Shown: piece after piece, positions 6,847 to 15,530 of the stretch
Position numbering within the stretch: the first letter of the stretch is position 1
Layout of the letters: each line of letters begins with the position of its first letter
Source: Cristatella mucedo
Taxonomy: Eukaryota; Bryozoa; Phylactolaemata; Cristatellidae
Reading direction: 5' to 3'
Assembly (NCBI GenBank): GCA_009760855.2
Contig: WPIO01000024.1
Location: 3,013,001-3,077,000 of the forward strand
Length of the DNA stretch: 64,000 nt
Made by a program: the position numbers and the translations under genes
The notes under the pieces: generated by a model
Seen by the model: the letters and a program-made list of their open reading frames with translations, nothing else
Database searches by the model: none
Told to the model about the DNA's origin: nothing

Positions 6847-7684
6847 TCAGGCGTAAATACCCTCCTCGCTCTCATTGCTGATGCCTTTATTTTTGTTACC
6901 TTCAGTGGTTTTGTCTTCCAGGCAAGCTGTGTCGTCAGAATTCGGCAAACGGTCGCAAGTATGGGCGATCGGATCAGGACAGCTCGGGATATTTTCATAG
7001 GCAGCCTTTGACGAGGAGTGCATCTCGACACTGGCGATTGAGCTGAAACTTTGCATAGGGACATATGTACTGGAGTAGCCAGGATGCTCTGACTTGCTGT
7101 ACATTGGCACCACGGCTCCAGCGGCAAATGCAGCAGCCTCCGAATATTTGATACATCGATCCTTGCCATCCATGGATTTCTCAACGACAGCTTCAAGGTA
7201 AGCAGTTTCGAATGAGTTTGACGATCGATGGAATTGGAAAACGTCGGCTGCATTGCAAACTTCGGCAGTGCTGTCAGCTGGCGCGGCACAATTCTTAACA
7301 CACTTACTTGAGCCGGTATTCCTCATAGTGACGTACCCCTCCAAGTCCCATCGAGAGGATGGGTCTCTGCACAGCGGATCTCCTTCTACTATCTCCAAGG
7401 CGGTCCGAGTCTCCCTATTTTTAAAGGCTCCTTGACTCCTAGGATCAACGTTCGCAGAACTAGCTTTATCGAAAGAATTAAACGTCTCGAGTTTCACGAA
7501 TTCGTTCTCTTTTAGCTGGTCATTCTCGGAACGGTTGCCCGTGTACTCATTTTCTGATGCATGGATGAACGCCAGGTTGATGACGTCGGTCGAGGCTCTC
7601 ATTTGGACTCCGGTATCAAGGTCCTCACCAGGGTTTGTTAAAGATCCGTCAGGGTATTTCTTCAGCGGCTTCCATCCAAGTTTT
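6847..7684 (-). CDS. receptor-like gene, exon 4: cytoplasmic tail and stop
   Basis: Terminal coding exon of 279 codons including TGA at 6847-6849. The acceptor is TATTTTTAG at 7685-7693. The first base completes the Arg codon left by the transmembrane exon, giving WWLLKRKLGWKPLKKY across the junction. The tail is hydrophilic, rich in Ser, Glu and Asn, with no enzyme domain. Candidate phosphotyrosine sites are GYVTM (Tyr codon 7333-7335), TYVPM (7063-7065) and AYENI (6997-6999); NEYTGN and PMYSK are others. YxxM is the classic p85 SH2 motif and YxN the Grb2 motif; their use here is inferred. The frame is intact over more than 830 bases in an otherwise decayed region, which argues for selection. 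The frame also stays open upstream of the first ATG (7602) right to the acceptor. Confidence 0.75.
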
Positions 7685-8079
7685 CTAAAAATATGTTTGG
7701 GTTGACATTTTTTTTATCTACATGGACACTCAGACGTATTTCCCTCGTCCACCCACAGGCAGATCTCAGAAGCTTGATAGGGCTATTGCTACAGTCACGT
7801 TAAGTTAATCATAATTATTGATATCTTAAGACATTTTTAGCCAAAAAGATAATGAAATTACTTCCTAGACACTTTGAAAATGCTATAAAAACAGCCTCAA
7901 AAACGTGCACAGTACCAGCAGACATCAGACCACGATGAACAATTCGCACGGCAAGTGCAAATACTGTTATGAACAGGTCGATTGTACTGGTTCTTAAATT
8001 TCCTAAAGTTGGAGTATACCTTAGTATCAGTCAGGAGCACGTTTTGGGCGCAGACGAACTGAAAGTAAGCCTCTAATGG
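7685..8079. other. intron 3 of receptor-like gene, no feature
   Basis: Begins (on the minus strand) after the donor at 10331-10336 and ends here at the acceptor. This part shows no repeat or coding signal. Confidence 0.5.
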
Positions 8080-8395
8080 CTTGACCACATTTAAAAAGAA
8101 ACTTAAAGCACATCTATTTTTTTAGCATTTAGTGGGTTCATGTAATTCGTCCTTTACGTGCTAATGCCTGCTGACATTGTGCACGGTGCCGCTAATAATA
8201 TTTGCATGCAGACCCTGTGCATGTCACCCTGATATACGTTATGCTTGTTTATTGAGCATTCTAACCATTTGATCGTGCTTTTTCGAAGCAATTTAAAGTG
8301 CCTAAGAAGAAGAATGGAAGATGGAAGAAGATGATTGATTTCTCTGAGGGGGCTATATCAAATGCATTAATATTAATATTGTTATTATTAATTAT
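8080..8395 (+). mobile_element. LINE-A 3' end fragment
   Basis: Plus-strand copy from the last codons (TTTTAGCATTTAGTGGGTT) through the 3' UTR with GCTGACATTGTGCA and CATGTCACCC, to an eroded stem-loop and (ATT)n at about 8370-8395. Inserted in intron 3, antisense to the host gene. Confidence 0.8.
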
Positions 8396-9114
8396 TTGTG
8401 GCCTCTTGTAGGCTTAGCTGAACTAGTTTAGTTCAAAGGGCGGGAAGTACGATGCCTTAGTTGGAAGTAGTTTCGATTGATGGCCAAAAATATGGGAAAA
8501 CGGATCCTAAGCTTGATTGGCAGAACATTCAACTCGACACGTTACTTGATGGAGATCCAGTAGGGGTAGATGATTAAATATTCATTACTTGCCACTCTCT
8601 GAGTCTCCGCATGCATGCTCATTCACAAAAACCTTACTCTACCCAAACTGAACGGTCAAACAAAAGCCTCTGGAAACCATGCAAGAGAAACCAGAATGAC
8701 TACCAGTCACGGTCCTTACCATCCAGTATCCGGCCTCCGGTATCGAGCCGCCACCAGCGCTAAATCAGTCGAAGAGCCTTCCTGAGCCGCCCTGAGGCGG
8801 CCATTTTTTTAGGATGCAGATCGCTCAATACAATTATCTGGCTTCCCTTCATACAATAATTACAATCACTAATAATACAGCAATGAACAGTTTTGATCGG
8901 ATATCTCTATTATCGCATTTAGACCGCTTCAGGAAGATCTTCATCGTTTGAATACCGAACATACCGTGCTTTTGAAGCTGCATACTAGTCAGACCTTAAC
9001 GTCCGTATGAATAAACACTATGACCCCGATGTAAGTAGCTTCTCTATGCTAAGTTTAAGACCCTTAATTATTCGATAAAAAGATGACATATTAATTGTAT
9101 GCAAAAGCTGCAAT
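8396..9114. other. intron, no feature seen
   Basis: AT-rich intron sequence without recognisable coding or repeat structure. Confidence 0.45.
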
Positions 9115-9885
9115 AATATTAATAATACACTTAATAAAGCACCCTCAGAGAACTCAATCTCTTCCTAGGCGCTTTGAATTTACTGCGAGGGGAAACACGA
9201 TTGAATGGTGATTGATATCGTGCTTGATAAGCCACGTGAATAACATGGTTAGGGGTGACATGCACAGGGTCAGCATGCAAGTGTGGTTAGTGTCAGCATG
9301 CACAGTGTCAGCACCCATAAGCACATGAAGGAAGAATCACAGGGGCCCACTAAATGCTGACCTAAATAGGTGTATTTTTAAGTTCTTTTTAAATGTGGTC
9401 AAGTCAGGGGATGTTGTGACGCTAGTCAGGAGTGAGTTCCAGCCTTTGGGAGCATACGAACTAAATGCATGGTCTCCAAAGAATTTGAGGTTTATACGAC
9501 GTATTGGTAAACTGTGTTGGATTCCGAAAAAACGGATGGTACGATGCTTTGCCTGGCGGGGAACAGATCTGAGAAATAGGCTGGAGCCAAATAATGAAGT
9601 GACGTAAAAGTGAGCGACAAAACCTTGAAGTCGATCCATTGCTTGACTGGTAGCCAGTGCAGATCGGTGAGAAGTGTGATGTGGCAACTGCGACGCTCAT
9701 GACAGACAAGCTTAGCAGCAGAGTTTTGCCCCAGCTGTAATCGCCTGATTGCACATACCGGTAGGCCAGCAAGCAGTGAACTACAGAAGTTAAGACTGGA
9801 TGTCACAAATGCATGGACCAACTTGGACGTGGTATTCTTATCTAAGCAATCATTGGCTAATTAGCCAGCAAGAGTTGTAATAAAT
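9115..9885 (-). mobile_element. LINE-A copy, 5' truncated
   Basis: Minus-strand copy: (AAT)n and tail at 9115-9190, UTR, then the C-terminal coding part. Readable pieces in two frames include LHAFVTSSLNFCSSLLAGLP, RLQLGQNSAAKLVC and FGDHAFSSYAPKGWNSL. A frameshift and stops make it dead. Lies in the intron of the receptor-like gene, same strand. Confidence 0.85.
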
Positions 9886-13985: not shown

Positions 13986-14364
13986 AAATTAGCTGTCCCA
14001 TTCCTCCGCTTAAAGACCGTTGGCGACAGAAGCTTTAGCTCTGCAGGTCCTAGACTGTGGAACTCGCTTCCGCAATTCTTACGCAACGACAACTACTCTC
14101 CTACTGCCAACTATGGCACATCCTTTTCAGCGGTCCTGAGCTGCTACTTTCATGCTACTCACTACCTCAACTGCTCTCCTGACTCTGCTATGCTTCCCAC
14201 TTTCTCTTTGTTGCGTGAGACGAAGTCTGTTGGCTACCGAATGCGTACCGAAAGCCGCTTAGGCTGTGAGTTCGCTATACAAAACTCTCTCCTGCGTAAC
14301 ACCCACATGGTCTTTATGACTTTGTGGAGTTACAGACGAAGATACATTACCTTATATTACATTA
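13986..14364 (+). mobile_element. LINE-B 3' end
   Basis: Last codons of LINE-B in good condition (PPLKDRWRQKL-like frame, then LPTFSLLRETKSVGYRMRTE) followed by UTR and an ACATTACC(TTAT)ATTACATTA tail, the (ACATT)n end typical of this family. Confidence 0.85.
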
Positions 14365-14404
14365 AATTGTACAGCATCTGTAAAGTGCCTATAAAGAGAT
14401 TCAG
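14365..14404 (+). repeat. LINE-A tail, left half of split stem-loop
   Basis: CAGCATCTGTAAAGTGCCTA, AAAGAGATTCAGCTC: this is the first arm of the LINE-A 3' tail. The second arm (GAGAGTGCTACGCAAATGCA) is at 14941-14960, beyond the (TC)n tract. Confidence 0.75.
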
Positions 14405-14940
14405 CTCTCTCTCTCTCTCTCTCTCTCTCTCTCTCTCTCTCTCTCTCTCTCTCTCTCTCTCTCTCTCTCTCTCTCTCTTCCTCTCTCTATCTCTGTCTGT
14501 CTGTCTGTCTCTCTCAGTCTCTCTGCCTTATCTCTCTCTCTCTCTCTCTCTCTCTCTCTCTCTCTCTCTCTCTCTCTCTCTCTCTCTCTCTCTCTCTCTC
14601 TCTCTCTCTCTCTCTCTCTCTGTCTCTCTTCTCTCTCTCTCTCTCTCTCTCTCTCTCTCTCTCTCTCTCTCTCTCTCTCTCTCTCTCTCTCTGTCTCTGT
14701 CTCTCTGTCTCTGTCTCTTTCTCTCTATATCTCTGTCTGTCTGTCTGTCTCTCTCTCTCTCTCTCTCTCTGCCTCTCTCTCTCTCTCTCTCTCTCTCTCT
14801 CTCTCTCTCTCTCTCTCTCTCTCTCTCTCTCTCTCTCTCTCTCTCTCTCTCTCTCTCTCTCTCTGTCTGTCTGTCTGTCTGTCTCTCTCTCTCTCTCTCT
14901 CTCTCTCTCTCTCTCTCTCTCTCTCTCTCTCTCTCTCTCT
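14405..14940. repeat. (TC)n microsatellite, about 535 bp
   Basis: Almost pure CT dinucleotides with clusters of CTGT and a few interruptions (TTCCTC, TATCTC, GCCTTAT). Long open frames across it in every frame are low-complexity artefacts. It sits in intron 1 of the receptor-like gene, inside a LINE-A tail. Confidence 0.97.
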
Positions 14941-15472
14941 GAGAGTGCTACGCAAATGCACAAGAATAATAACTATTATAATATTAGATATGGAGTCCCA
15001 TATCCAATTATTTTGTGGCTGCCGGCCAAAATTACGGCTAGCCATAGCCTTAAGAATCCCTCAATATATTCTAGGCTGCTGTCTTGCAAATACACGAGGT
15101 GACACACCTCAGCCGATGAGGGGCGCTGAGGCACCACGAGGGACAGTGTGCAGGATCAGCTCAGTATTCGCTTAGATTCTAAATCAAGAGGGCGACTCTT
15201 CAAAACAAGATTAGCCTACTCTACGACGGTCAAATTGACTACCGGCAGCCCCTCTTGTCACTATGGAGACCATAAGAGTGCTTTGCTCTTCGCCACGGGA
15301 ATATACTGTGGAGCAAGTGAATCGTGTCAACCAGCTAGCCTGTCAGTTTCAAGGTCATTGTGGTGCCGCTGATCGCATCTGCATAGAATATAACAGAGGG
15401 CAATGTTGGGGTGGACAACATCGTAACGGCAAGCGCCGAGACTTCATTGACAAAATAAGCAAGCGAACATAC

Positions 15473-15530
15473 CTCTGGTCGCTAGCAGTGTCGTCATTGC
15501 GAGCACAGTCAGCAGCAGCAGCAGTCTCAT
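15473..15530 (-). CDS. receptor-like gene, exon 1: start codon and signal peptide
   Basis: ATG at 15528-15530 (minus strand), then Met-Arg followed by five Leu, TVLAMTTLLAT and Arg: a textbook secretory leader of about 19 residues. It stops at a strong donor, CCAGAG|GTATGT, in phase 1. Exon 2 begins with the two bases needed, giving Ala, so the leader would be cleaved around ATRA. The Leu run is encoded by CTG repeats. No TATA box is evident upstream. The opposite strand is open for 90 codons across the same place (15263-15535). Confidence 0.65.

Follow-up and report, generated by a model that had tools for sequence, protein, structure and literature searches.

How might a membrane protein that has neither a recognisable enzyme domain nor a recognisable relative pass a signal into the cell? 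The question is raised by a gene on the minus strand, at positions 6847..15530 of a 64,000-nucleotide stretch of the genome of the bryozoan Cristatella mucedo (positions 3,013,001 to 3,077,000 of contig WPIO01000024.1, assembly GCA_009760855.2), which was analysed as a whole and is called the window here. The answer that we favour, with a probability of about 0.5, is that the gene encodes an orphan type I protein whose tail tyrosines Y299 and Y389 would serve as docking sites for PI3-kinase, and Y411 perhaps for Grb2. The gene is probably real, and its product is best read as an orphan receptor or docking protein that evolves fast and, once phosphorylated, would recruit PI3-kinase.

Four minus-strand exons, when joined, give 1383 bases, or 460 codons plus a stop. 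All three introns have GT-AG borders, their phases are 1, 1, and 2, and no stop arises at any join, which bears out the four-exon, in-phase model, with a coding length divisible by three, that an earlier note on this DNA had proposed. The features of the gene and its predicted product are as follows.

15473..15530, minus strand: exon 1, with the ATG and the leader peptide (MRLLLLLTVLAMTTLLATR plus one base); donor gtatgt
10702..11079, minus strand: exon 2, the ectodomain; acceptor ttcttgcag, donor gtatgt
10337..10445, minus strand: exon 3, juxtamembrane residues and membrane helix; weak acceptor, donor gtaatc
10342..10425, minus strand: membrane helix, about residues 153-180, limits set by eye; flanks of net charge -1 (outer) and +6 (inner)
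6847..7684, minus strand: exon 4, the predicted cytoplasmic tail of 279 residues, and the stop codon
7324..7338, minus strand: GYVTM, Tyr 299; a p85-type YxxM that also matches YxxPhi
7054..7068, minus strand: TYVPM, Tyr 389; a p85-type YxxM that also matches YxxPhi
6988..7002, minus strand: AYENI, Tyr 411; a Grb2-type YxN that also matches YxxPhi

The model has weak points at its borders and start. Pyrimidines occupy 6 of 13 positions at the exon 3 acceptor versus 8 of 13 at that of exon 2, and exon 2 has an alternative in-frame donor (atag, gtaaag) at 10641, which would add 20 residues if used. Upstream of the gene on the minus strand, an out-of-frame ATG at 15567 opens a frame that crosses the gene start, and another at 15538 begins the short frame ATG CTA CAA TGA, whose stop overlaps the gene's start codon; these two ATGs could possibly reflect translational control or a true start elsewhere. 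A scan of intron 1 by signal thresholds, for extra exons with phase 1-1 and a length between 90 and 600 bases, yielded no candidate. The scan was limited to this intron and could have overlooked an exon, since exon 2 meets its thresholds but exon 3 itself would not. Repeats shared within the window or with the flanking 120 kb overlap none of the four exons; they account for 2142 of the 4393 bases in intron 1 and for 1060 of the 2652 in intron 3.

Hydropathy gives one leader and one membrane helix. The ectodomain between them is about 126 residues long, with cysteines at 27, 53, 96, and 138 and a single sequon for N-glycosylation (NGT 107). The helix is followed by a positively charged stop-transfer stretch. 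The charge of the helix flanks, -1 outside and +6 inside, places the long tail inside, and the product is most likely a single-copy type I membrane protein with a cytoplasmic tail. The joined reading frame and the flank charges thus support the type I layout of the earlier note; its leader, ectodomain, and single helix all stand, and the tail is slightly longer than the 270 residues claimed. This tail is rich in Ser, Ala, Glu, and Asp and lacks a recognisable catalytic domain at the Pfam level. Its eight cysteines (2.9%) are more than one would usually expect of a cytosolic segment, and its two sequons would be unused inside the cell.

The three tyrosine motifs are all present in the tail as had been claimed, with Y299 and Y389 lying 90 residues apart, and their frequencies were compared with those in 100,000 residue shuffles of the tail. 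At least two YxxM motifs arose with P 0.015, and two YxxM together with one YxN with P 0.0075; at least two copies of the narrower pattern YVxM, which was chosen post hoc, appeared in 5 of the 100,000 shuffles (P 0.00005). Three YxxPhi motifs are ordinary in such a tail (P 0.29). Of the motifs in the earlier claim, those of p85 type thus exceed what shuffled tails give, and the single Grb2-type motif is not above chance. An assignment of the motifs as immunoreceptor tyrosine-based inhibitory or activation motifs (ITIM or ITAM) was rejected on inspection, their spacing and flanks being unsuitable by the consensus as generally known.

In the mechanism that we propose, the protein would bind a ligand or pair with a receptor that bears a kinase, whereupon a tyrosine kinase, either of the Src type or a receptor kinase, would phosphorylate Y299 and Y389. 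The phosphorylated YVxM sites would bind the SH2 domains of PI3-kinase p85, leading to more phosphatidylinositol trisphosphate (PIP3) at the membrane, and Y411 (YENI) may add Grb2-SOS and hence Ras. Anchored in the membrane, the protein would serve for docking in the way that CD19, CD28, or IRS proteins do, while belonging to none of those families. This reading draws on the rarity of two YVxM and of two YxxM sites in shuffled tails, on four in-phase GT-AG exons that are clear of the repeats found, on genome searches (572 Mb) that gave no second copy of the tail or the ectodomain, and on a long, protein-like tail frame whose inner position follows from charge and which has no Pfam enzyme domain. 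It also draws on the CD28 family, in which YxxM is taken to be a PI3K site and YxNx a GRB2/GADS site (PMC11599192).

Comparison with known systems shows where the likeness ends. The tail here has both motif types expected of a CD28-type tail (GYVTM and TYVPM as YxxM, AYENI as YxN, the latter alone not above chance). ICOS and CD19 are single-pass and kinase-less, with tails of the YxxM/YxN type, and receptors of the CD28/ICOS/CD19 type have immunoglobulin (Ig) ectodomains. The protein here is likewise single-pass and kinase-less; as regards the Ig V-type ectodomain of CD28-type receptors, neither the protein nor the ectodomain exon alone gave a Pfam Ig match, and the fold model is weak. The CD28 tail, from its generally known length, is much shorter than the present one. 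The same source (PMC11599192) places the CD28 family across jawed vertebrates and reports it as not found in agnathans, whereas this gene is from an invertebrate. Receptor tyrosine kinases carry a kinase domain in the tail, whereas here there is no kinase match and the tail ends at 6847. Type I cytokine receptors are marked by paired fn3 domains, WSXWS, and box 1; here, with the same weak fold model, there is no Pfam fn3 match and, on inspection, no WSXWS in the ectodomain. The signalling-adaptor layout suggested in the earlier note therefore stands as regards the absence of a recognisable kinase domain, and its likeness to co-stimulatory or cytokine-type receptors is one of analogy only, with no Ig or fn3 match among those listed.

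Other known systems differ in other ways. The docking proteins IRS and Gab have a long tail that carries several YxxM and a Grb2-type site, but they are cytosolic and have PH/PTB domains, whereas the protein here bears a leader and a membrane helix. The p24 proteins, which contain GOLD domains, have a short cytoplasmic tail, unlike the roughly 280 residues found here. Adaptors of the LAT/LAX type have almost no ectodomain, as against about 126 residues with four cysteines, and the non-kinase DCBLD receptors have CUB-LCCL-discoidin ectodomains, for which no Pfam match was obtained here. The tail motifs of LAT/LAX-type transmembrane adaptors bind Grb2 when phosphorylated (PMC3291652), and the interaction networks of DCBLD receptors are regulated by FYN and ABL (PMC8015000).

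The coding status of the gene was addressed by frame length, residue composition, and codon use. In a second-order Markov simulation of 60 windows of 64 kb, with microsatellites removed, no window had a frame of at least 288 codons; the real window has four, the exon 4 tail frame among them. Other long frames are the following.

16023-16904, minus strand: 294 codons, close upstream of the gene; rank 32 of 57 by composition, probably non-coding
35301-36188: 296 codons, composition rank 19 of 57; read as a retroelement relic
13986-14939: 318 codons; microsatellite

Because the window holds other frames of equal length, frame length is suggestive and no proof. Composition was ranked over 57 frames with a minimum length of 100 codons, low-complexity ones (one residue at 20% or more) having been dropped, and against generally known average protein frequencies; the tail frame ranks second. 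Synonymous codon bias was trained on 30 CUB exons of this genome (2,234 codons), which themselves score from -0.172 to 0.507. Per codon, the gene scores +0.034 and exon 4 -0.016, still the best of its six frames. The frame of an AAA ATPase exon fragment elsewhere in the window (24922-25263, minus strand; Pfam AAA 24.2 bits; best PDB matches Rix7, an AFG2 homologue, and spastin) scores -0.042, from which it could be deduced that the test has no power.

Searches for relatives returned the gene itself and little else. In the genome of 572 Mb in 688 contigs, the ectodomain matched only its own gene, and the tail matched its own gene and one further segment (contig C122, E 1.39, two stops), which was taken as chance; these searches score only loose first-pass candidates (four for the tail, two for the ectodomain), so that a distant paralogue could escape. 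Permissive tblastn against the window and the surrounding 120 kb gave chance-level matches outside the gene, the best (L049) with E 1.6 over 14 residues in a short frame. In Pfam, neither the whole protein nor the ectodomain exon alone came near a cut-off, and no kinase or other enzyme domain appeared. The candidates rejected there were a ricin-type lectin (tail; E 0.11, 13.6-13.7 bits, curated cut-off 25.6), the RET cysteine-rich domain (tail; E 0.12, 13.1 bits, cut-off 26), and Topo_C_assoc (ectodomain; E 0.03, 14.6 bits, cut-off 25.1), whose scores lie far under the curated cut-offs and are taken as chance. Against PDB sequences, the whole protein gave nine matches at E 10 or below, the best of which aligned its membrane helix with integrin beta-3 (E 0.62), and the ectodomain gave two, the best at E 1.3. 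The profile search of the 460-residue model that the earlier note had advised thus found nothing credible in Pfam, and its failure to place the protein in a family has held so far in Pfam, in PDB sequences, and among possible paralogues in the same genome. Among the papers listed by a non-exhaustive full-text literature search, none described such a layout in an invertebrate.

The ectodomain could be a diverged member of a known beta-sandwich family, CUB as in DCBLD or GOLD as in p24, which would be compatible with the docking reading. The structure search that had also been advised was carried out with a weak single-sequence fold model, whose predicted local distance difference test score (pLDDT) is 50. 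All fold-search Z scores are below 6, a range that the tool calls common, and the matches may therefore mean nothing. Among the 50 fold matches listed are several GOLD proteins, with chains of other types above them (bacterial metallopeptidases, an archaeal virus structural protein, and, close behind, lysozyme inhibitors), to none of which a meaning was attached; none of the 50 has CUB in its entry title. A CUB ectodomain, an impression by eye, gained no support from sequence: with a profile of 30 CUB exons from the same genome, the ectodomain ranks 686 among 879 rows listed (1,001 sequences, the others being its shuffles), and in hhalign 133 of 200 shuffles equal or beat it. GOLD, suggested by the fold-search rows, was likewise unsupported. 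With a two-protein GOLD profile the ectodomain ranks 98 among 679 rows listed (1,001 sequences), and although no more than 2 of 200 shuffles equal it in hhalign, the alignment covers the acidic linker and not the core. We regard a diverged member of a known family as rather unlikely. As an observation on CUB exons in their own right, they occur in this genome in dense runs (G000:C155:3.37-3.42 Mb and C22:1.15-1.20 Mb).

We consider it very probable that the gene is real and spliced, a matter of judgement, and quite unlikely that the model is wrong or dead, with exons joined by chance, just a part of some larger gene captured, or the gene in decay. Such a failure would fit the lack of any relative in the genome, Pfam, or PDB sequences, the out-of-frame upstream ATG, the second possible donor, the weak exon 3 acceptor, the other frames of like length, and an exon possibly missed under thresholds stricter than exon 3 meets; it is opposed by three in-phase, stop-free joins, a biologically sensible order of leader, helix, and charges, the empty scan of intron 1 under its thresholds, and the protein-like composition of the tail. 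If the gene is real, the role of the tail can still be questioned. Several points weigh against docking: only 2 of the 10 tail tyrosines lie in YxxM, the YVxM count was picked after the sites had been seen, and at least one YxN is the chance expectation (P 0.49). Furthermore, nothing in Pfam or PDB sequences credibly matches the ectodomain, whose frame does not stand out as protein-like (composition rank 24 of 57), and codon bias gives the gene no support, both it and the AAA-ATPase frame being inseparable from background. YxxPhi is a commoner type of signal than tyrosine docking motifs, and all three sites (Y299 VTM, Y389 VPM, Y411 ENI) match its generally known consensus, so that they might be unphosphorylated sorting signals for AP-2 in a cargo, scavenger, or adhesion protein. 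We regard this as unlikely. Three YxxPhi are expected by chance in such a tail, and their count is thus no evidence for sorting; two sites that pair Val at +1 with Met at +3 are rarer, and a tail of 280 residues exceeds what a sorting signal would seem to need.

Within the docking reading, a bolder and rather improbable version is a taxon-restricted receptor family that joins an undescribed, beta-rich ectodomain to an independently acquired PI3-kinase docking tail of the IRS/CD28 type. If it were true, this invertebrate lineage would have a co-stimulation-type or growth-factor input to PI3-kinase that does not bring its own receptor kinase. The docking reading, if true, would be an instance in an invertebrate of a PI3-kinase docking tail put together convergently on an ectodomain of unrelated origin. 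It would also mean an additional PI3-kinase input that sequence annotation has overlooked because neither half matches a known family.

The remainder of the window and genome provided some minor observations. Segments at 51000-53300, 35301-36188, 26580-27296, and others in the window are read as non-long-terminal-repeat retroelement relics; 52167-52595 has a Pfam reverse transcriptase match of 47.5 bits, and the other relics were recognised by eye from the peptides that they share. Long CT/GA and CA/TG microsatellites at about 14400-14950 and at 40540-40950 give rise to spurious long frames (SLSLSL, RERERE). Elsewhere in the genome, the 21-kb mitochondrial contig C688 contains inverted and repeated segments and a block nad1-nad6-cob-nad4L-nad4-nad5 on one strand, with gene names assigned by eye; this order is known from lophotrochozoans. 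The contig translates by the invertebrate code, with AGA at serine and AAA at lysine positions of cox1 as these are generally known, and the genome is read as that of a non-chordate, probably spiralian, invertebrate. A search for the beta-sandwich of mollusc haemocyanin gave no match, but control genomes gave none either, and the result therefore says little. Pieces resembling cox1 on the contig of the window (G000:C166:4375626-4376390) and on C83, C549, and C299, with stops by the standard code, are likely nuclear copies of mitochondrial DNA. Regularly spaced (about 2 kb), often equal-scoring fn3 matches at G000:C653:8.42-8.64 Mb, and a repeated 15-base word coding for GYVTM, often at steps of about 2 kb, at C92:40047-127967, are probably tandem arrays.

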